Origin: a virus
DNA length: 21,321 nt
Direction: 5' to 3' (one strand)
IMG/VR virus record: IMGVR_UViG_3300019924_000022
Location: 1 to 21,321 of that record
Both the position numbers and the translations under genes were made by a program. Below, piece by piece: positions 2,221 to 13,556 of the stretch. Each line of letters starts with the position of its first letter. Within the stretch, counting starts at the first letter, position 1. The notes below the pieces were generated by a model, which saw only the letters and a list, made by a program, of their open reading frames with translations, searched no databases and was not told the DNA's origin.

Positions 2221-5200
2221 ATGGGACGCATTCGTGATTTGTTTGGCGGGGGCAATGACCGCCCCGCGCCGGAGGAGATTGCACACTGGGATTCCGAGGA
2301 CATTGCCGAGGTAAACAAACAGTGGCTCTCGGCTAACCCACGGCAGGCGGCCAAAGAAGACGCACCGGGGCCGTCGACACTCACCGAAGGCACTCTGGAA
2401 AAGCAACCCTCGACAGGCTCTTCGCGTGCCGAGTTTCCGTGGTTGCACGACCCCGACAAGGGCGTGCAATGGGACTTCGACCCGGTGCGATTGCGCGAAC
2501 TCGCACAGCCGAATACGTGGGTCGGGACACTCGTGAACACCATCGTCAAAGAGATTGCACAGACGCCGTGGCAGATCGTCGAACACGACGGCACCCGCGC
2601 CGAGACATCGAAACGCTTGCGCACTCACCCGGAGCAACGCGACAGTATCGAGAAACAAGCGACCGGCCCCGTCGCGCAACGACTGGCGCGACTGATCGAC
2701 GACCCACATCCCGACGCCGACAGTCAAGACCTGTTCCAGATGCTCATGGCTGACTTGCTCGAAGTCGGGTCACTCACCGCGCCGCTGGCCTTCGACAGCG
2801 ACGATTATGTGGATGACCAACTCGTCGCCAACCCCGACCCGCCGCTGGCGATTCAACCGTCCGCGCCGGAGGTGTGGACCAAAGAGTTCGCCGATAAGAC
2901 CGACGTACTGCAAACCTACTGGCAGTTCGAGCGGGTGTCCTCGCCCGGCGGCACATCGGGCAACACACGCGGCCGACGCCAGCAACCCATCGCCTTCGAC
3001 AGACGAGAGGTAATTTGGTCGGACCTCAACAGCCGGACGAACCGCCGCTACGGCCTGCCCCCGACGCTACTGGTGCGCAAATTCCTCGAAAGCGCTGACC
3101 TCGCTATCACCCAAGAACAGAACTACCTGAGCAAAGGCTCGATTCCCTCCGGTGCGCTGGTCTTTGAGGGCTGGGGCCGCGAAGAACTCGAAGCGTGGAT
3201 GACCCAACAGCAGGAGAACATCAAAGGCAAGCCGCATAAGTGGCTGACGCTGGCGGGCAAGGGCGGCGACATCTCCTTCGAGCCGTTCTCCTACAACTTC
3301 AGCGAGATGCAGTTCATGGAGCGCCTGCGCTTTTACGCCAAGGTCATCGCCAGCGCGTTTCAAGTCCCCACGGCAGTCGTCGGCTTAGAGCCGGAGAAGG
3401 TCAACTACAACACCTTCGAGGGCGAGCGACAGAACTTCGAGGCCAACACGCTCGGACCGTACCTGCAAAAACTGGAGCGGGTGGTTAACGATCAGTTGGT
3501 GTGGGAGTTCTTCAGCGACGACCTCCGCTTCGAGTTTGCGCCCGGAATGTCCGAACAGACGCGCAACATGATTAGCCAGCGTGTCACGGCGGAGGTGTCG
3601 GCAGGCATCCGCACGCCGAACGAAGCGCGGGAGGAGATTGGCTTGCCGGAACTCGACAGCGACGACGCCGATAGTCTCGGTGCCGGTGGCGACGACGACG
3701 GCGACGGCGACATGGGCGCACTGGGCGACCTCGTTGCATCGGTGGCCGACAACTCCGCCGGGGCGACCGACACCAGTGCCACAAAGGCCGCCTTTACAGT
3801 CGGAGATGCAGTCACGTATCGCTGGCAGGGCGAGCGGTATCACGGCCGAATCGGTGGCCCGCCGCGTGACAGCATCCAACCGCCGGGGATGCCGTCGCCC
3901 GTCTCTGGTGACAACGGCGAGCCGGTCTACCCGATCCATCAGTGGGATGGTGATGAGGGCGCGTATCTCGCACTGAATGGCGAACCGAACACTGCAAAAC
4001 CGGAGTCGGCGTTATCAGCCTCAACCGAACCACTCCCGCCGTTGTCCGAAGCGCGTATCCTCGACGTGGATGTCCCACAGGCCAGCAAAGCCGAGTACGA
4101 CGTAGCCGACGAGACAATCGACATTACGCCGCCGGAGTACATGGTCGCCGCCGCCGAGGCCGGGGCCGAAGCGGAGAACGACCCCGACGTATCGGGCGAC
4201 TGTGGCACGGGCGTGGGCGACCGCCGCGCCGACCAGATCACCAACGACGAGGTAGGGCCGGAGGTAGTGCGGGAGATTGCCAGCTATCTCACCAGCCACG
4301 AAGAGGATGTAACCGCCGAGGGTGCGCCGGGGGAGTGGACCGACGAGGAGATGAGCGACTGCGGCAACCGACAGTACGCGAAGTGGGGCGGCACGGGCGA
4401 CGGCAGAGCGAAGGCGTGGGCGCAGGGCAAGGTGAACGAACTCGACAGAGCCAACGGCGACGACCTCACGTATCCCGAAGCCAACGCTGCCGGCGGCATC
4501 CAGAAAGACGAACCGCTACGCAACAATCCCGACACCGCCGCAACCTTTGCCCTCCAACCGAGCATGGTCGAAGACTTAGCCGACGAGTTAGACGACCCAG
4601 TGGCCCAGTTCTTCGACGCCGTACTCTCCTCGGAGGAATTGGCCGACGCTATTGATACCTTCGCCAGCGCCGCCGACAGCGCCGAGAAATCGCTGTCTGA
4701 GGCGACGGGCGAGACTGACGACGCCCACTTGCGTCGGACTGCCAGCGCCGCCGTTGCCAAGCGCGGGCTCAACGACATCCGCCGCGTCGTCGAAGACCTC
4801 GCCGCAGACTTTGATCTCGCCGAGACGGTTCGGGATGCTGTGACGACAGCGGCCGGTCAGGCGGCCCGTGAAGCCGTCGAAGATGCAGTCGGAGAGGTTG
4901 AGGCCGACGTGGCCGCGGACCCGATTGTCGAGGCCGTGCAGAGCCGTGACCGGGCAGTGCTGGACAACTACACCGACGAAATGGCCGAGCAGATTCTCGA
5001 CACGGTGCAAGAGGGCTGGGAAGCGGGCAAGACGAGTACGGACATTCGTGATGACCTGCAAGCCACCAAGGAGGACTTTTCGGAGTGGGGTGCCGAGCGG
5101 GTGGCCCGACAGGAACTCCAGATAGCGACGGGGCAGGCGCGTAACGAGTTCGCCGCCGAAGCGGGCAAGGTAGAGGTGTGGCGCGACTCCGGCGATGATC

Positions 5201-5400
5201 GGGTGCGTGAGGCCCATCAGCAGATGGACGGACTCTGGAAAGAGCCACAAGAGGAGTTCGTCGTCGACTATGGCGACCGCGGCGTCGAAAAGGAGAACGT
5301 GCCGGGACAGTCAGAGCCGGGTATCGGGTGTCGGTGTTGGGTGGAGCTTGTGGACCGCGAGGATGTAGACGACGCCGACCACGCCGGGACGCTGACGTGA
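2221..5400 (+). CDS. Portal protein fused to Tudor-like, head and MuF domains
   Basis: A 1059-aa fusion. Residues about 1-475 are a portal protein: the upstream neighbour is TerL, and the segment WVGTLVNTIVKEIAQTPWQI and the C-terminal helix with PNEAREEIGLPEL are typical. An acidic Gly/Asp linker follows (about 478-500). A Tudor/SH3-like domain spans about 523-600 (FTVGDAVTYRWQGERYHGRI to AKPESAL). Residues about 637-740 resemble a region of phage capsid proteases and head proteins, with PPEYMVAAAEAG, then SYLTSHEEDV and the Trp-Gly-Gly patch WGGTGDGRAKAWA. An acidic helical stretch (777-900) leads to a MuF head-morphogenesis domain (about 913-1050: VARQELQIATGQARNEF, REAHQQMDGLW, GIGCRCW). 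The portal ring is the DNA entry vertex; MuF domains are internal minor capsid components. Portal-MuF fusions are known, but four modules in one chain is unusual. Confidence 0.93.
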   Translation: MGRIRDLFGGGNDRPAPEEIAHWDSEDIAEVNKQWLSANPRQAAKEDAPGPSTLTEGTLEKQPSTGSSRAEFPWLHDPDKGVQWDFDPVRLRELAQPNTWVGTLVNTIVKEIAQTPWQIVEHDGTRAETSKRLRTHPEQRDSIEKQATGPVAQRLARLIDDPHPDADSQDLFQMLMADLLEVGSLTAPLAFDSDDYVDDQLVANPDPPLAIQPSAPEVWTKEFADKTDVLQTYWQFERVSSPGGTSGNTRGRRQQPIAFDRREVIWSDLNSRTNRRYGLPPTLLVRKFLESADLAITQEQNYLSKGSIPSGALVFEGWGREELEAWMTQQQENIKGKPHKWLTLAGKGGDISFEPFSYNFSEMQFMERLRFYAKVIASAFQVPTAVVGLEPEKVNYNTFEGERQNFEANTLGPYLQKLERVVNDQLVWEFFSDDLRFEFAPGMSEQTRNMISQRVTAEVSAGIRTPNEAREEIGLPELDSDDADSLGAGGDDDGDGDMGALGDLVASVADNSAGATDTSATKAAFTVGDAVTYRWQGERYHGRIGGPPRDSIQPPGMPSPVSGDNGEPVYPIHQWDGDEGAYLALNGEPNTAKPESALSASTEPLPPLSEARILDVDVPQASKAEYDVADETIDITPPEYMVAAAEAGAEAENDPDVSGDCGTGVGDRRADQITNDEVGPEVVREIASYLTSHEEDVTAEGAPGEWTDEEMSDCGNRQYAKWGGTGDGRAKAWAQGKVNELDRANGDDLTYPEANAAGGIQKDEPLRNNPDTAATFALQPSMVEDLADELDDPVAQFFDAVLSSEELADAIDTFASAADSAEKSLSEATGETDDAHLRRTASAAVAKRGLNDIRRVVEDLAADFDLAETVRDAVTTAAGQAAREAVEDAVGEVEADVAADPIVEAVQSRDRAVLDNYTDEMAEQILDTVQEGWEAGKTSTDIRDDLQATKEDFSEWGAERVARQELQIATGQARNEFAAEAGKVEVWRDSGDDRVREAHQQMDGLWKEPQEEFVVDYGDRGVEKENVPGQSEPGIGCRCWVELVDREDVDDADHAGTLT

Positions 5401-5401
5401 T

Positions 5402-5508
5402 GTTACCACGGTTGTAACCATCACTCCGGCCCAACGTTACCTGTCATGTATCCACACGCCCACCGCGTAGCTACATAACGGTAACACTTATGCACAGGGC
5501 GATGTTAC
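5402..5508. promoter_or_regulatory. Array of GTTAC/GTAAC half-sites, putative RHH operator
   Basis: Five copies of a 5-bp half-site lie between the portal gene and the RHH gene: GTTAC at 5402-5406, GTAAC at 5414-5418, GTTAC at 5436-5440, GTAAC at 5481-5485 and GTTAC at 5504-5508. The first two form a 17-bp near-palindrome with one mismatched pair. Start-to-start distances are 12, 22, 45 and 23 bp, close to multiples of about 11. A TATA-like CTTATG (5487-5492) lies 27-32 nt before the ATG at 5519, so the last two half-sites flank the core promoter. Ribbon-helix-helix proteins usually bind short repeated half-sites, so autoregulation by the next gene is inferred. Confidence 0.55.
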
Positions 5509-5518
5509 AATGCTGTGT

Positions 5519-5800
5519 ATGGCAGACGACAGCCAGACAGACGGCGACAGCATCGAACGGACGCAAGTACGGGTCAGAAAGGAAACCCGCGAAGAGGCGA
5601 AAAAACACAAAGGCCCCGGCGAAACGTGGGACGATTACCTCAAGCGCTGTACTGAGCAGGGCCAGCCGGTGCTTGAAGTCGTCGACGCACAGGACGCGCT
5701 GGCAGGCATCGGCGGTGACGGGCTGACCTACGACGACGTGAAAGCCGCGGTGTCGGCGGCACTGGAAGAACAACTCCCCGAAGAGGTGCAGCAGCGATGA
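5519..5800 (+). CDS. Ribbon-helix-helix-like DNA-binding protein
   Basis: A 93-aa acidic protein. Residues 14-20 (RTQVRVR) look like the basic DNA-contacting beta strand of an RHH fold, followed by helix 1 (KETREEAKKHKG, 21-32) and helix 2 (ETWDDYLKRC, 35-44). Small haloarchaeal proteins with this strand-helix-ETWDDF pattern are common. Residues 50-93 form a second acidic part with two predicted helices and may mediate oligomerisation. I chose the ATG at 5519, in the context TGTGTATGG with a TATA-like box 27-32 nt upstream, over the in-frame ATG at 5510. It heads a chain of overlapping small genes and follows a cluster of GTTAC half-sites, which suggests a repressor controlling its own operon. 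The regulatory role is inference. Confidence 0.75.
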   Translation: MADDSQTDGDSIERTQVRVRKETREEAKKHKGPGETWDDYLKRCTEQGQPVLEVVDAQDALAGIGGDGLTYDDVKAAVSAALEEQLPEEVQQR

Positions 5801-5955
5801 GCGACGGCGACTGGCAGATCGAAGGGACTGCGCACATCTGCGGACTGGGGCACCTCCCAGACAAAATTCACGACATGCACGAAACAGAAGTATATGCTGT
5901 CTTTTCGGACGGCGAGACGCTACTTCTGAAACCAGCAAGCGAGGTTCAGCCATGA
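5797..5955 (+). CDS. Small protein of unknown function (52 aa)
   Basis: A 52-aa ORF that overlaps the stop of the RHH gene by ATGA and is preceded by a Shine-Dalgarno-like GAGGTG at 5783-5788 (8-nt spacer). It looks like a small beta-rich domain (HICGLGHLPDKIHDMHETEV, then VYAVFSDGETLLLKPASEV) with one Cys and several His residues. I do not recognise a family. Coupled start and stop codons at both ends and the ribosome-binding site argue that it is translated. Confidence 0.65.
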   Translation: MSDGDWQIEGTAHICGLGHLPDKIHDMHETEVYAVFSDGETLLLKPASEVQP

Positions 5956-6143
5956 ACAACCACATCAAGCGACTGGCCGATGCCGTCCCCGACGCCGACG
6001 AGCGCCAGCCGACGCCGCTGGCCCATCGCCCACCCACGGAGTTGCTGATCGGCACCGAGGGCGTTCGCCTGCGCGAACGGTCGGCGGTAGGCGAGGCGTG
6101 GATCGAAGCCGAGTACTTCGAGCGACTGGAGGACTGGCGATGA
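5952..6143 (+). CDS. Small acidic-basic protein of unknown function (63 aa)
   Basis: A 63-aa ORF linked by ATGA overlaps to the genes on both sides, with GAGGT at 5941-5945, 6 nt before the ATG. The N-terminal part is Pro/Asp-rich (NNHIKRLADAVPDADERQPT). The C-terminal part (TELLIGTEGVRLRERSAVGE followed by AWIEAEYFERLEDWR) looks like a short beta segment and a helix. No family is recognised. Translational coupling is the main support. Confidence 0.65.
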   Translation: MNNHIKRLADAVPDADERQPTPLAHRPPTELLIGTEGVRLRERSAVGEAWIEAEYFERLEDWR

Positions 6144-6421
6144 GTAACGGTGAGTCTACAGACGGGACTGGCCTTTCGGAACTACAGGAACAAAGCAAAA
6201 GTCGAGTTCTCAAAGTCCCGTCCGCAGAAGGTCAGCACTGGATACGGTACGTCGGAGACGAAGACGAGTTTCGGGCAGTATACGAAGGTCCGCATGGTCC
6301 CGAAAACTCCGAGAAAACCATCGACAACAGGAACATCCGCGAGTTGCTGAAATCGGCAAACGGATGCGAGATTGAAGAAATCGATAACTCACCATTCACG
6401 GAAATTGAGGTGGTTCTATGA
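6140..6421 (+). CDS. Hypothetical protein (93 aa) in an AT-richer patch
   Basis: A 93-aa protein starting at an ATG that overlaps the previous stop (ATGA), with GGAGGA at 6128-6133 (6-nt spacer). The sequence has a polar N-terminus, a beta-like core (SRVLKVPSAEGQHWIRYVG), and a C-terminal half with NRNIRELLKSANGCEIEEI and FTEIEVVL. I recognise no family. Local GC is about 50%, clearly below the capsid genes, so the gene may have been acquired separately from the structural module. Its stop overlaps the next ATG. Confidence 0.7.
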   Translation: MSNGESTDGTGLSELQEQSKSRVLKVPSAEGQHWIRYVGDEDEFRAVYEGPHGPENSEKTIDNRNIRELLKSANGCEIEEIDNSPFTEIEVVL

Positions 6422-6597
6422 GGCCCATTGATCGGATAGAAGAGGATTGCCCCGAATGCGGTGGCGAACTCCAGCGGCAGGATCAAGAGAATTTGCAGTG
6501 TCTCGGATACTGTCGTGAACCGTTTGCACATTACCGCCACAGCGACGGGACGCACGTTCTTGAGAATAGCGAAAGCGAGGTGGTCCGCCGTGTCTGA
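6418..6597 (+). CDS. Small zinc-ribbon protein (59 aa)
   Basis: A 59-aa protein with a Cys-X2-Cys knuckle (CPECGGEL, residues 11-18) and a second Cys pair (QCLGYC, residues 27-32) separated by a short loop. This matches a compact zinc ribbon of the kind common in haloarchaea and their viruses. The tail is His/Glu-rich (AHYRHSDGTHVLENSESEV). It starts by an ATGA overlap with the upstream stop and has GAGGTGG at 6407-6413, 4 nt before the ATG. Zinc binding is inferred from the Cys pattern; whether it binds DNA, RNA or protein is unknown. Confidence 0.7.
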   Translation: MRPIDRIEEDCPECGGELQRQDQENLQCLGYCREPFAHYRHSDGTHVLENSESEVVRRV

Positions 6598-6748
6598 TTC
6601 ACCACCAGACGACTACCATGCAGACAATGCTGGTCTTACGCCAATACTCGCGTTGTTAGTGCTTATTTACCTACTTGGGCGAGGTGTTGGGTTGTGGTCA
6701 CTACATCCGGACACTCACCGAACCGATACGAACGATGATGAAGTGTAA
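6590..6748 (+). CDS. Single-span membrane micro-protein (52 aa)
   Basis: Starting at GTG 6590, which overlaps the preceding stop by 8 nt, the frame encodes 52 aa: a polar acidic N-terminus, one hydrophobic span (about residues 17-38, LTPILALLVLIYLLGRGVGL) and a polar acidic tail (DTHRTDTNDDEV). No ATG is available in a sensible place, so GTG is the best start. No family recognised. It is the first of three membrane micro-proteins in this cassette. Confidence 0.6.
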   Translation: MSDSPPDDYHADNAGLTPILALLVLIYLLGRGVGLWSLHPDTHRTDTNDDEV

Positions 6749-6824
6749 CCACTGCGGCCAGCGGGTGGCCGATGGGTCCGAACTGCGCGAGCACATCCGC
6801 GAGAAGCACCCGGGGAAAGTATGA
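6735..6824 (+). CDS. C2H2 zinc-finger micro-protein (28-29 aa)
   Basis: A single classical C2H2 finger makes up almost the whole protein: Cys-X2-Cys (CNHC), 12 residues, His, 4 residues, His (REHIREKH). Two tandem ATGs (6735 and 6738) are possible starts, giving 29 or 28 aa. The gene overlaps the upstream micro-protein by 14 nt and its stop overlaps the next ATG (ATGA). One-finger proteins this small are known from haloarchaea and archaeal viruses, but the partner here is unknown. The exact ligand spacing makes chance unlikely. Confidence 0.7.
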   Translation: MMKCNHCGQRVADGSELREHIREKHPGKV

Positions 6825-7027
6825 CCACTGCAAAGCAACGCCACGGCGCGGCGGTAATCGTCCGACTGGTACAGTGGCTCCTCGTACTCATCACGGCGCT
6901 GTCGTGGTGGGCGCTATTCTCGGCAACGAGGTTGGTGGATATCACGGCGCTGGGCATGTACGCGCTCAGTACGGCGGCGCTGGTCGTCGCACTCGAAGCG
7001 GTGACATGGCGGTGGTCCGATGACTGA
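6821..7027 (+). CDS. Two-span small membrane protein (68 aa)
   Basis: A 68-aa protein with a short basic N-terminus, a first hydrophobic span (about 10-33, VIVRLVQWLLVLITALSWWA) and a second (about 40-62, ITALGMYALSTAALVVALEA), ending in WRWSDD. Start and stop are coupled to both neighbours (ATGA upstream, 8-nt overlap downstream). No family recognised. Trp-rich paired spans could suit a membrane-perturbing or anchor protein, but that is speculation. Confidence 0.7.
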   Translation: MTTAKQRHGAAVIVRLVQWLLVLITALSWWALFSATRLVDITALGMYALSTAALVVALEAVTWRWSDD

Positions 7028-7109
7028 CCCATTCTGGTTCGGCCTACTCGTCGCACTGTTCATCCAGACACTCATCTACGCCGTCGCGTTCGCTATCCTC
7101 GCAGTCTAA
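7020..7109 (+). CDS. Single-span membrane peptide (29 aa)
   Basis: A 29-aa frame starting at ATG 7020, inside the end of the previous gene. It is almost entirely one hydrophobic helix (WFGLLVALFIQTLIYAVAFA). It begins with MTDP and ends in TAA at 7107-7109. Its coupling to the two-span protein suggests the two are made together and may act as a pair. Such a short ORF could arise by chance, so confidence is moderate. Confidence 0.55.
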   Translation: MTDPFWFGLLVALFIQTLIYAVAFAILAV

Positions 7110-7126
7110 CCCACCGCCGCGATAGG

Positions 7127-7132
7127 ATTTTG
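7127..7132 (+). promoter_or_regulatory. TATA-like box for the phosphoesterase gene
   Basis: ATTTTG at 7127-7132 lies about 28-32 nt before the ATG at 7159, whose context is CTCGTATG. There is a 49-nt gap after the small-gene cassette. A leaderless start is inferred. Confidence 0.45.
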
Positions 7133-7158
7133 GTAGGCCGGGCCTACTGTCCACTCGT

Positions 7159-8613
7159 ATGCCTGATTCCGTGCCGACACTTGCCGAGGTTGATGCATCT
7201 CCCCGCCAGCGCGAACTCGCCGAGTACGTCGCACTGTATGGCCCACTCTCTCGTGATTCCGTGGCCGAGGCCTTCGACCTCGCAGGGAACACCGTCAGTG
7301 ACCACTTGCGGCCGTTCAAGGCGGCGGGTGTGATTGTTCACACCGACGACGGCGAGTACGCCCATCACGACGACAGACCGACGACGACGGACAGCGAGGA
7401 CTTACCACAACTCGATGCAGTGCCACTGGGCGACGACCCCGACCCCGCCGACCTGACCGAACGCGAGGAATACATCGCCACGGAACTCACGACGGGCGCG
7501 ACAGTTGAGGGGCTGGCCGATGACCTCGGCGAGCGACCCTCGGTGGTAACTCAACACCTACGGGACCTTCGACAAAACGGCTGGCAGGTCTATGTCGACG
7601 AGACGGCGGGGCAAGTGGCGCTGGAGGGCGACCACAACCTCCGCAGTTCCGAGCACACCGGCACTCGAACCCGCAAGGCGAATCAGTGGTGGGAGTTGCG
7701 CCACTCCGCGCTCGTCAGGGAGTTCAACGGCCTGCAACAGCCAACGGCTGACCCAGTACATACTGCCGATGGCGAGGACTGGTTGCTGCATCTCACCGAC
7801 CTCCACGCTGGCGATGTGGTGCGCCGCGACGACGGCACCGTGGTCTACCAGACTGCCGACATTCCCGACGTGATTGATTACGTCACCGAACAAGCGCTGA
7901 CGCTTGCCGATACGCACGACGCCACCTACGATACCGCACATCTCCTGTGGGGGGGTGACTATCTCACGAACGAAGGCATCTACGAGGGACAATTCGAGGA
8001 CCTCGATGCGTGGCTGGACGAACAGCATGACGCACTCGTCGCGCCGCTGTTGCGCCAACTCAAAGCCTTTGCCGAGCGCTTTCCTGCCGTCAACGTCGTC
8101 TCGCAAGTCGGGAATCACGGCGACCACAGAGCCAGCGGGACGAGCAAACAGGCCAACGCCGACCTCGTTCTCTACAAGACGATTCGCAACGTCGTGGCCG
8201 AACTGCAAAAAGAGGTTGACGTACTCTCAAACGTGACGTTTCGGATCGGGCAGGCACAGGCGTACCGCAACTTTGCCTGCCGCGACGGGCGGATTCGGGG
8301 CCACTTGCGCCACGGCCAGCACCGCCGCCCACAGGCCGAGACGAGCGCCCGCAAAAAGGAGTGGCTATCCACACTGCGCGAACACGAGTTCGACATCGCG
8401 TTCATGGGCCACCACCACGTCTCTGGCCGCATCCCGTGGGATGGCCCGCCAATCCTCGCCACAGCATCGCCGAAGCCATCCGGTGAGTTCGTCGAGCGAA
8501 TCGGCGAATCGGTCAAAACCAGCCAGCAGAACATGGCGACGGTCTGCGGTGTAAGCGACGACGGCATCACGTCTATCTTCCCGATAGATTCGCGCAACTA
8601 CGACGCGCAGTGA
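7159..8613 (+). CDS. HTH-metallophosphoesterase
   Basis: A 484-aa two-part protein. The N-terminus (about 12-65) is a winged-helix domain (RQRELAEYVALYGPLSRDSV, NTVSDHLRPFKAAGVI), and a second similar HTH follows at about 103-150 (TEREEYIATELTTGATVEGL, SVVTQHLRDLRQNGW). The C-terminal half is a calcineurin-like metallophosphoesterase with all its metal motifs: DLHAGD (D214, H216, D219), GGD (D267), GNHGDH (N319, H320), a His pair in RHGQHRRP (H385, H388) and FMGHHHVSG (H418-420). The substrate is not evident; nuclease or phosphodiesterase activity on DNA is plausible given the DNA-binding half. Tailed haloarchaeal viruses commonly carry related proteins. It sits inside the head gene cluster under its own promoter. 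Confidence 0.9.
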   Translation: MPDSVPTLAEVDASPRQRELAEYVALYGPLSRDSVAEAFDLAGNTVSDHLRPFKAAGVIVHTDDGEYAHHDDRPTTTDSEDLPQLDAVPLGDDPDPADLTEREEYIATELTTGATVEGLADDLGERPSVVTQHLRDLRQNGWQVYVDETAGQVALEGDHNLRSSEHTGTRTRKANQWWELRHSALVREFNGLQQPTADPVHTADGEDWLLHLTDLHAGDVVRRDDGTVVYQTADIPDVIDYVTEQALTLADTHDATYDTAHLLWGGDYLTNEGIYEGQFEDLDAWLDEQHDALVAPLLRQLKAFAERFPAVNVVSQVGNHGDHRASGTSKQANADLVLYKTIRNVVAELQKEVDVLSNVTFRIGQAQAYRNFACRDGRIRGHLRHGQHRRPQAETSARKKEWLSTLREHEFDIAFMGHHHVSGRIPWDGPPILATASPKPSGEFVERIGESVKTSQQNMATVCGVSDDGITSIFPIDSRNYDAQ

Positions 8614-8626
8614 CGTGGCCGGTACG

Positions 8627-8632
8627 GTTTTC
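8627..8632 (+). promoter_or_regulatory. TATA-like box for the gene at 8657
   Basis: GTTTTC lies about 25-30 nt before the ATG at 8657, which has the GGGTATG start context. This supports starting at 8657 rather than at the upstream in-frame GTG at 8615, which would place the box inside the gene. Confidence 0.5.
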
Positions 8633-8656
8633 CCGCCCACAGTCCTACCAGTGGGT

Positions 8657-9160
8657 ATGCTCGATACACTCCCGACACTCCTCGAACAGTACCCGGCACT
8701 GCTCGCCGCGCTGGCACTCGTCATGCGGGCCGTGCTCGCGTGGCAGCGCAGTCTGACGTGGTACGAGTACCGAACGCTGCACGGACTCAAGCGATTCGTT
8801 CTCCCGCGACTCGGCACGGGGATCAACGAGAAGGGCGGCAGGGACGACGCCGAGTTCATCACGACGGTGGATCGGTCCCCGCGCAAGACCGTTGGGACAC
8901 TCCGCGAAGCGGGCGCGGTGTTGCACCTCGTCTGCTCGCTCAAGCGACGGCCAGACGGAGCGCTGACGTACGCCCACCTGATCTTCGAGCACGGCGACGA
9001 CCAAACCGAGGCGTTCCTGTTCGCCAACGGTGACGGGACGACGGACGTGTACGCACACTTTGAGCCGGGGCCAGAAACGCCACTGGAACACCTCGGCGGC
9101 GACGAGCAAGAGGACGGCGACCCGCGCGGTGTCGTTCGGGACGCACTGGGCAAGGACTAA
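8657..9160 (+). CDS. Membrane-anchored hypothetical protein (167 aa)
   Basis: Residues about 12-27 (PALLAALALVMRAVLAW) form a hydrophobic N-terminal helix. A basic stretch (RTLHGLKRFVLPRLG) and a soluble alpha/beta domain follow (FITTVDRSPRKTVGTLREAG, LTYAHLIFEHGDD, DVYAHFEPGPETP), ending in an acidic tail. This suggests an N-terminal membrane anchor with a cytoplasmic or virion domain, but I recognise no family. The start is chosen from the promoter-like box 28 nt upstream. It lies between the phosphoesterase and two virion-like beta proteins. Confidence 0.75.
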   Translation: MLDTLPTLLEQYPALLAALALVMRAVLAWQRSLTWYEYRTLHGLKRFVLPRLGTGINEKGGRDDAEFITTVDRSPRKTVGTLREAGAVLHLVCSLKRRPDGALTYAHLIFEHGDDQTEAFLFANGDGTTDVYAHFEPGPETPLEHLGGDEQEDGDPRGVVRDALGKD

Positions 9161-9185
9161 CAGCCACCACCGCGTACCGTCGCAC

Positions 9186-9584
9186 ATGACCAACGACTTT
9201 TCGACAGACTTTGCCACCGACATTGCCGAGTACCTCTTCGACGGCACGCAACTCCCCACCCCGCCGGGAACGATCTACGTTGCACTGTTCGACGACACCG
9301 GCACCGAAGTAACGAGCGATTTCCAGAACGGGCGCGTTGGCCTTGCCGTGCCGGGCGACTGGTCACGGTCAGGCAGTCAGGCTGACAACGGCGTTGACGT
9401 GGCATTCGGCGAGGCAACGGCGGACGTAAGCAACATCGCTCGCGTTGGCCTGTGGGATTCCGCAAGCGGTGGCACGGAGTTCGGACGATTCGATATTGAC
9501 GACGCCGACGCACCGTTTGATGTGTCGGATGGCTCAACACTGACGATCAACACCGGCAATCTGGACTTTGACGTACTGGACTAA
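9186..9584 (+). CDS. Gp80-like tail-fibre/virion protein (132 aa)
   Basis: A 132-aa protein with the architecture of the small phage gp80/tail-fibre-like family: an N-terminal helix (DFATDIAEYLFDG), the strand TIYVALFDDTGTEV, a middle region (VDVAFGEATADVSNIARVGL with WDSASGGTEFGRFDI) and a C-terminal strand pair (GSTLTINTGNLDFDV). In bacteriophages this family occurs among head or tail structural genes, and the residue pattern from Y-V-A-L-F through G-L-W-D to L-T-I-N matches what I recall of it. Its stop overlaps the next ATG (TAATG), so the two are probably made together. It may decorate the capsid or form part of a fibre; location is inferred. Confidence 0.7.
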   Translation: MTNDFSTDFATDIAEYLFDGTQLPTPPGTIYVALFDDTGTEVTSDFQNGRVGLAVPGDWSRSGSQADNGVDVAFGEATADVSNIARVGLWDSASGGTEFGRFDIDDADAPFDVSDGSTLTINTGNLDFDVLD

Positions 9585-12299: not shown

Positions 12300-13556
12300 A
12301 TGTCTACCACGCAAACGTCGAAGAAACGACACAACGAGGTTGTCAAATCGCACAGTAAGCGAGAGTCAGCCTACAAGAACAGTTTCGGGGATTTCCCCCG
12401 CGATACCATCTACCGCGACCCGCTCGGCTTCAAGACTGGCGGCGAAAGCGTCTTGATGCAAAAAGAGTGGTCGGAGATGCTGACCGAGGACGTGGACTGG
12501 GGCGCAACTGCCACCGGGACACGGCACGCCTCAATCATTGAGAAGTGGAACGAGCTCCAGCACAAGGGCTTCACCGTCAAGCAGACCACCGAAGAGATCT
12601 CGAAGGCGTTGGGCACGGGTGACTTTCAGCTTCCGCTGGACATCATTCAGGATGTGTTTGTCGTTCAGCCCGAGCAGACCCCCGCCGCAGAGTTCATCAC
12701 CCGCGTCACCACGCAGGACGACCGCGTGCATGCAACGCCCGTCACCGACCAGCCCGAACCGTCCTTTGACCTCGAAACCGGCGCGGCGACGGACGCCGAT
12801 GGCAACCGGGTGTACGCCTTCGATGACGCCGATTACGCGGACCTCGTGTACGACGTGGAGGGCTACGGTGTCGCTACGCGGATCACCGACAAAATCATCC
12901 TGTCCAGTCAGAACCTCCGCTCGCCGGAAGCGACGACGGAGGAACAGCTACTCATCGGCCACCGCCAGAAGACCGAACGGCAGATCATCTGGGGCACCAA
13001 CGCCGCCGCACCGTCCGAGGGTGACAGTAACGGCTGGGGTGGCTTCGCCGACTACGGCGAACGCTCGCTTTCCGCACTCGCCGAGGCCGATGCCAGCAAC
13101 CCCGCCGACGTGCAGGATTACGTCGAGGACCTGATCGACGAGTGTGAGCGTGCCGGTGCGCCGCTGGAGTCAATCGCCGTCTTCCTGCCGTTCGACCTCC
13201 ACCGCACGCTGCGCCGGGCCTTCGACGAGCGTATCCGCTACGAACCTGCGGAGGCACTGGACGTTGGCTTTGCCACCTTCGCCATGGAAGGCGGACAGGT
13301 CCCGGTGTTCAAGACCAACGCCATTCCGAACACCTCGGCGTATCCCTCCGCCGAGACGAACGACGTGGCCTTTGCGGTCAACATGGACAGCGTGGCGCTG
13401 TATCAGCTACAGGAGCCGACCATCCAGCCACTCGCCAAACTCGGCCCCGAGGAGCGGATTGCCGCCGACCAGTACAACGTGCTCGTCTCTGAGTCCGGCG
13501 ACGGGTCTACCCGGACGGCCGACCACATCCAGATCGGTCAGCTACAGACCTCCTAA
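12300..13556 (+). CDS. Major capsid protein (HK97-fold, inferred)
   Basis: A 418-aa protein directly after the scaffold and before the connectors, the normal place of the major capsid protein. The N-terminal 50 residues are basic and polar, as in an N-arm. A long helix (about 76-106, around SIIEKWNELQHKGFTVKQTT) is followed by an E-loop/P-domain-like beta region (QLPLDIIQDVFVVQPEQTPA). The C-terminal half contains a DDADYADLVYDVEGYGVATR segment, a long helix after GHRQKTERQIIWG and an A-domain-like strand set (VPVFKTNAIPNTSAY, VALYQLQEPTIQPLAK). The HK97 fold is inferred from this layout and from synteny. A Shine-Dalgarno site 9 nt upstream fits high expression. Confidence 0.88.
   Translation: MSTTQTSKKRHNEVVKSHSKRESAYKNSFGDFPRDTIYRDPLGFKTGGESVLMQKEWSEMLTEDVDWGATATGTRHASIIEKWNELQHKGFTVKQTTEEISKALGTGDFQLPLDIIQDVFVVQPEQTPAAEFITRVTTQDDRVHATPVTDQPEPSFDLETGAATDADGNRVYAFDDADYADLVYDVEGYGVATRITDKIILSSQNLRSPEATTEEQLLIGHRQKTERQIIWGTNAAAPSEGDSNGWGGFADYGERSLSALAEADASNPADVQDYVEDLIDECERAGAPLESIAVFLPFDLHRTLRRAFDERIRYEPAEALDVGFATFAMEGGQVPVFKTNAIPNTSAYPSAETNDVAFAVNMDSVALYQLQEPTIQPLAKLGPEERIAADQYNVLVSESGDGSTRTADHIQIGQLQTS

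Follow-up and report, generated by a model that had tools for sequence, protein, structure and literature searches.

Putative operator sites co-vary with RHH protein type at a variable island of HSTV-1-like haloarchaeal tailed viruses

Known regulators and the island behind the portal gene

The archaeal-virus RHH regulators SvtR (SIRV1) and AvtR (AFV6) bind their own promoter at several sites, can spread, and repress their own gene (PMC5569661). RelB acts at relO, the core of which is [A/T]TGT[A/C]A (PMC2812701), Aca8-type regulation of anti-defence genes has been described for aca8 of SIRV2 (PMC11065993), and viral VapB homologues that lack a toxin partner have been interpreted as antitoxins that act on toxins of the host (PMC8651126). 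RHH autorepressors are an established class of regulator among archaeal viruses. For haloarchaeal tailed viruses, the targets of only few transcription regulators are known. Lambdoid immunity regions combine repressor and operator specificities that vary together and are swapped as one module.

The window analyzed here is a whole IMG/VR virus record of 21,321 bases, which may be a genome fragment. Its predicted gene content, which includes the terminase large subunit (925-2181), a portal-MuF fusion gene (2221-5400, plus strand) and the major capsid protein (12300-13556), places the virus near Haloarcula sinaiiensis tailed virus 1 (HSTV-1, Shortaselviridae). The conserved portal-MuF gene forms the left border of a variable island and a conserved gene at 9186-9584 (plus strand) its right border; most relatives, as well as HSTV-1 (gp10), have a homologue of the latter 3' of their cassette. 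The island between these borders (5401-9185) is hypervariable, ranging from about 0.3 to 3.8 kb among relatives, which have almost no island genes in common except for the RHH types. An empty allele is found in L067 (3679-3985), where about 300 nt lead from the portal gene to the next conserved gene without an RHH gene and without such a promoter. Gene order around the island has also changed between the window and its close relative L014: an HTH-exonuclease gene (7159-8613), encoding an N-terminal winged HTH fused to a metallophosphatase/exonuclease domain, follows the portal gene in the window and lies upstream of terS in L014. A perfect inverted repeat (GTAGGCC-G-GGCCTAC, 7136-7150) is located a few bases before the start of this gene at 7159 and could be the protein's own operator or a terminator.

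At the head of the island's cassette operon, which is embedded in the head-gene region, lies a gene for a 93-residue RHH protein (5519-5800, plus strand) with a VapB/DUF7557-like N-terminal domain, with a predicted strand (RTQVRVR) followed by predicted helices at residues 21-30 and 37-46. The protein alone stays under every Pfam cut-off, and its link to the RHH family is made by its relatives, which match DUF7557, VAPB_antitox and RHH_1, some of them above the Pfam cut-offs, and by the comparison of its subfamily with the VapB/DUF7557-like profile (HHalign, 97.4%). RHH proteins (MetJ/Arc/CopG-like) are dimers that place paired strands in the major groove. An AlphaFold monomer of low confidence (pLDDT 59) contained helices 21-30 and 37-46 with the strand not formed and was too weak for use as a query in structure searches; a profile search of the PDB returned weak matches only (MazE7 antitoxin, E = 0.2; histone H2B, E = 0.058). 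Single-sequence searches with the RHH protein retrieved no relatives from the viral or genome collections, and portal-based searches were therefore needed.

Eight further small ORFs follow on the plus strand (5797-5955, 5952-6143, 6140-6421, 6418-6597, 6590-6748, 6738-6824, 6821-7027 and 7020-7109). As originally predicted, the nine ORFs between 5519 and 7109 form one unit, a plain operon in which neighbors overlap by a few bases. Two of the eight encode zinc-binding-like proteins and three encode hydrophobic, probably membrane proteins, which cluster in the cassette (6590-6748, 6821-7027 and 7020-7109) and are possible candidates for lysis or superinfection exclusion. No match to a PIN-domain toxin was obtained with Pfam in the eight cassette ORFs scanned, the 29-residue ORF at 7020-7109 lying outside the scan, and a toxin-antitoxin pair was rejected as there was no toxin gene in the cassette (Pfam, eight ORFs). 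Likewise, searches of Pfam, PHROGs and PADLOC, libraries that hold few anti-CRISPR or anti-defence families, gave no match that would assign such a function to a cassette gene.

Five sites in the promoter gap

The gap between the portal gene and the ATG of the RHH gene at 5519 comprises 118 nt (5401-5518) and contains the five copies of GTTAC/GTAAC on which the original prediction of an operator was built, beginning at 5402, 5414, 5436, 5481 and 5504. Putative operator sites 1 (5402-5406, GTTAC on the plus strand, ATGTTACCA) and 2 (5414-5418, read as GTAAC on the plus strand and assigned to the minus strand, TTGTAACCA) together make up the predicted 17-bp near-palindrome GTTACCACGGTTGTAAC (5402-5418), in which seven of eight pairs match, and their 12-bp step is also present in the related locus L095. 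Site 3 (GTTAC, plus strand) occupies 5436-5440. Site 4 (5481-5485, GTAAC on the plus strand, minus orientation) directly abuts the predicted TATA-like element ACTTATG (5486-5492, plus strand), and site 5 (5504-5508, GTTAC, plus strand, ATGTTACAA) follows between this element and the start, so that the last two sites do flank the TATA-like box as had been proposed. The element lies about 27-33 nt before the ATG, a spacing of the leaderless type. Sites 4 and 5 are the left and right halves of a 23-bp pair and delimit a putative core operator, GTAAC-N18-GTTAC (5481-5508), a 28-bp dyad around the TATA-like box; the string GTWACACTTATG around this box is common to the window and the loci L095 and L079.

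The earlier description of these elements as half-sites requires revision. GTTAC and GTAAC differ in the middle base alone, each site being a pseudo-palindrome GTNAC, often within TGTNACA. Since each site is by itself nearly self-symmetric, one site suits one symmetric RHH dimer, the T or A in the middle confers no real orientation, and a half-site orientation carries little meaning.

In the whole record, GTTAC/GTAAC occurs 18 times, against 22 occurrences expected, and five of these 18 fall in this gap, the only one in which the window's sites cluster; shuffling the entire record 400 times never placed more than four in any stretch of 118 nt. Dinucleotide shuffles of the gap yielded a mean of 0.72 sites, with P = 2e-4 for five or more GTTAC sites when the motif is named in advance. 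If the best of all 5-mers is considered instead, P amounts to 0.088 with dinucleotide and 0.006 with mononucleotide shuffles of the gap when overlapping copies are counted, and to 0.017 with non-overlapping counts. Because these best-of-all values lie at about 0.01-0.09, the cluster by itself is suggestive of more than chance, but not decisive.

Binding on one face of the helix had also been proposed from the spacing of the sites. This does not hold at the normal 10.5 bp per turn (R = 0.16, P = 0.87). The sites become aligned only at a period of about 11.25 bp (R = 0.99; P = 0.0018 with periods of 10-11.6 scanned), for which the DNA would need to be underwound or wrapped by the protein.

Operator classes and RHH types among relatives

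For comparison, relatives on independent contigs were identified through homology of their portal genes, blind to the operator, and the gap after the portal stop was examined together with the genes behind it in haloarchaeal tailed viruses. Sixteen non-duplicate loci with a forward cassette were obtained, and in all of them an RHH-like gene follows the portal stop at a distance of no more than about 640 nt; the RHH calls for L080 and L092 were made mainly by eye, that for L080 being accompanied by a weak profile match. Sites of the GTTAC/GTAAC type were present in the window (five), L095 (three), L079 (two) and L077 (three), and none was found in the 803 nt of the remaining 12 loci. All three loci with a GETW-type RHH protein, namely the window, L095 and L079, are among the four that have at least two sites (P = 0.007). 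Thus, at the homologous post-portal promoter the sites are conserved in relatives that carry the same gene: L095 and L079, with the RHH subfamily of the window, share its 23-bp pair, which encloses ACTTATG in all three. L077 has the pair at a different position, and the product of chances for the exact 23-bp spacing in L095, L079 and L077 is 3e-4.

Other loci possess other motifs. Half-sites of a CTACAA...TTGTAG class, 8 bp apart and just before the start, are found in HSTV-1, L073, L074 and L075, and L068 has a variant of this class in which two 14-bp copies flank the TATA box; although its sequence differs, the class retains the geometry of sites that surround the TATA box and precede the start codon. 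Runs of CTATRG/CTATAA, partly in 10-bp steps, characterize L071, L072 and L076, and a weaker CTATAT/TTATAG pair of the same CTAT class is present in L078. In L071 (5661-5732), four CTATRG-like sites run through the promoter in exact 10-bp steps (offsets 21, 31, 41 and 51). Each class goes with its own RHH type: GTTAC operators with the GETW type (window, L095, L079), CTACAA operators with the NWKTLRVP...TWGEQ type and CTAT operators with the TTxI[ES] type. Best-dyad scores are non-significant in most individual gaps, and the best single dyads per gap do not attain significance (Fisher P = 0.058); repeated 5-mers do (P = 5e-5, for loci that are not independent).

In Mantel tests on the 16 loci, promoter 6-mer similarity was correlated with RHH-domain similarity (r = 0.74, P = 1e-4; the loci are mutually related and all permutation P-values are approximate), and the correlation was the same when portal and first gene were partialled out (r = 0.74, P = 1e-4). 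Without near-duplicates and RHH calls made by eye it amounted to r = 0.64 (P = 1e-4). The last 24 nt of the promoter alone gave r = 0.72 (P = 1e-4), whereas the correlation was weaker for the stretch that precedes the TATA box (r = 0.38, P = 0.01). Promoter similarity follows neither the first gene (r about 0) nor the portal. In the 12 loci where the RHH gene is not the first and at least one gene intervenes, r was 0.76 for the RHH protein and 0.01 for the intervening first gene, a contrast that matters because plain linkage would pull the nearer gene at least as strongly. As RHH similarity, unlike that of the first gene or portal, goes along with promoter similarity, the RHH protein is the likely ligand of this promoter.

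A comparison of L075 with L077 illustrates the same relation: their portal ends are nearly identical and the downstream gene is identical (MGDHFDGFDV...), yet promoter class and RHH type both differ. On this evidence the two loci are a natural swap of promoter class together with RHH type. Outside the compared locus, HSTV-1 has a second RHH gene besides gp5, namely gp2, located after terL and of the TIEV type (TTxI type). Its upstream gap (L066, 1327-1367) contains CTATGG/CTATAG/CTATAG in exact 8-bp steps, which is the motif of the TIEV-type post-portal loci and agrees with the pairing of operator and RHH type; this virus may possess a pair of RHH regulators, each with its own operator. The RHH genes in exo-neighbor contigs sit inside operons and are unsuited to a clean held-out test. 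In L017, a more distant virus in which an RHH-containing operon sits behind an exonuclease gene, a 13-bp palindrome (CCTAAGTATTAGG) is located between the TATA-like box and the start of that operon (about 6560-6640).

Two cases count against the pairing. The RHH protein of HRTV-28 is 51% identical to that of the window over 55 residues and 77% identical to that of L095 over 48, but only one GTAAC and no site array is present in the promoter of its cassette, located between terL and portal, and HRTV-28 is a counter-example. L077 is a weak point as well, having three GTTAC-type sites and yet a different RHH protein (RHH_1 type). Searches from the operator side, in the viral collection and 391 haloarchaeal genomes, added no new members. 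A scan of the viral collection for GTWACACTTATG-N11-GTWACA returned 12 stretches, two of which were the known L079 and L095; the other ten were AT-rich (27-38% GC), lacked an RHH homologue, were mostly coding-like and were set aside as chance matches. A slightly looser composite pattern was found in none of the 391 haloarchaeal genomes.

Proposed autoregulation, alternatives and relation to known systems

We consider it quite probable that the gap is the promoter-operator of an autoregulating RHH repressor and that both form a matched pair exchanged with the variable cassette. In this mechanism, the gap would drive a small operon of early type that an HSTV-1-like haloarchaeal tailed virus has embedded among its head genes. 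Its first product, the 93-residue RHH protein, would bind GTNAC (TGTNACA) sites as symmetric dimers. The conserved 23-bp pair flanks the predicted TATA box and comes close to the start codon from upstream, and once filled it would block TBP/TFB or RNA polymerase, such that the RHH protein would limit its own operon; the upstream sites 1-3, with their 12- and 22-bp steps, may add cooperative loading. Regulator and operator would be swapped between related viruses as a matched pair, together with the variable cassette. Sequence and statistics show the sites, the operon structure, the RHH-type homology, the conserved 23-bp pair and an operator that co-varies with the RHH protein but not with the genes in between; DNA binding, repression rather than activation, its timing and what the cassette genes do are inferred.

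It is unlikely, in our view, that the protein is instead an orphan antitoxin, that is, a toxin-less VapB homologue which neutralizes VapC toxins of the host, with DNA sites that are irrelevant or vestigial. In VapB-type antitoxins, the C-terminal part binds the toxin. However, the C-terminal parts are unrelated between the viral RHH types, the cassette ORFs scanned with Pfam gave no PIN-domain match, and the tight co-variation of operator and RHH protein indicates selection on DNA recognition. The RHH domain is nevertheless related to haloarchaeal VapB, a chromosomal relative (L033) adjoins a VapC-like ORF, gp5 of HRTV-28 is annotated as VapB3, and exactly such a role has been proposed for toxin-less viral VapB homologues (PLoS Biol 2021, PMC8651126). 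The roles of antitoxin and autoregulator are not exclusive.

That the operator serves activation or a switch rather than repression seems improbable. AvtR represses its own gene yet can activate others (PMC5569661), and sites 1-3 of the window lie outside the core promoter, but the conserved pair brackets TATA box and start, where its occupancy would block initiation. We regard as quite improbable an origin of the motifs independent of the RHH protein, as sites for a host regulator or as a general promoter or recombination motif of the virus. HGTV-1 does repeat a promoter motif, a TATA element plus inverted repeat, before many ORFs (PMC3950731), and the TATA context ACTTATG is more widespread, for example in HRTV-28. 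However, the motif varies with the RHH type and not with the virus backbone or the first gene, and a genome-wide promoter repeat of the HGTV-1/PeSL kind was rejected, as the HSTV-1 palindrome occurs exactly once in its 32-kb genome, at the post-portal promoter, and the GTTAC cluster of the window in one gap. That a hand-picked 5-mer clusters by chance in a gap richer in AT is already disfavored and hardly credible: the best of all 5-mers does attain five copies in 2-9% of dinucleotide shuffles, but three further viruses independently have the same sites with the 23-bp spacing (product of chances 3e-4), and the 12 other loci have none.

For the autoregulating RHH repressor, co-variation yields a predicted operator for every RHH type (GTTAC-type, CTACAA-TG-TTGTAG or CTATRG), one gel shift could test each, and the loci naturally provide regulators and operators in both matching and non-matching combinations. 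The hypervariable island, the predicted regulated promoter of which can be recognized, is also a place to seek anti-defence genes of haloarchaeal viruses; that the island holds such genes, as aca8-type islands do, is a guess by analogy. More broadly, and tentatively, fast-evolving RHH-operator specificities, as an archaeal counterpart of those of lambdoid immunity, might control a hypervariable island of tiny anti-defence genes that separates portal and capsid genes in HSTV-1-like haloarchaeal viruses, and the "orphan VapB antitoxins" of archaeal tailed viruses might largely be such autoregulators.

The present locus resembles those of SvtR and AvtR in that a small virus-encoded RHH protein is predicted to act at repeated sites in its own promoter, overlapping TATA box and start. 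In contrast to these regulators of crenarchaeal rod-shaped and filamentous viruses, it belongs to a haloarchaeal tailed virus, and a separate VapB-like RHH lineage would use a different motif, with matched operator classes across relatives. With RelB/relO, VapB and DUF7557 autoregulators it shares a VapB-like RHH domain and short repeated sites in its own promoter, and the relO core resembles the TGTNACA of the window sites. Unlike RelB/VapB autoregulators, it has an unrelated C-terminal region and a cassette with no toxin gene, and its sites are 12, 22 and 23 bp apart, whereas RelB-type sites are contiguous hexads. As with Aca2 and Aca8, a small, here predicted, DNA-binding regulator is combined with an operon of tiny, fast-changing genes and one strong promoter with operator repeats; Aca2 and Aca8, however, are HTH or wHTH proteins, and the window cassette has no known anti-defence function or match. 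Like lambdoid immunity regions, the island appears to harbor regulator-operator specificities that co-vary and are replaced as a module, but with RHH instead of HTH proteins, an archaeal promoter architecture, an operon in the head-gene region and no evidence of lysogeny. As far as the literature searched shows, what would be new is the replacement of matched RHH-operator specificities by one another, as modules, at a single island of haloarchaeal tailed viruses.
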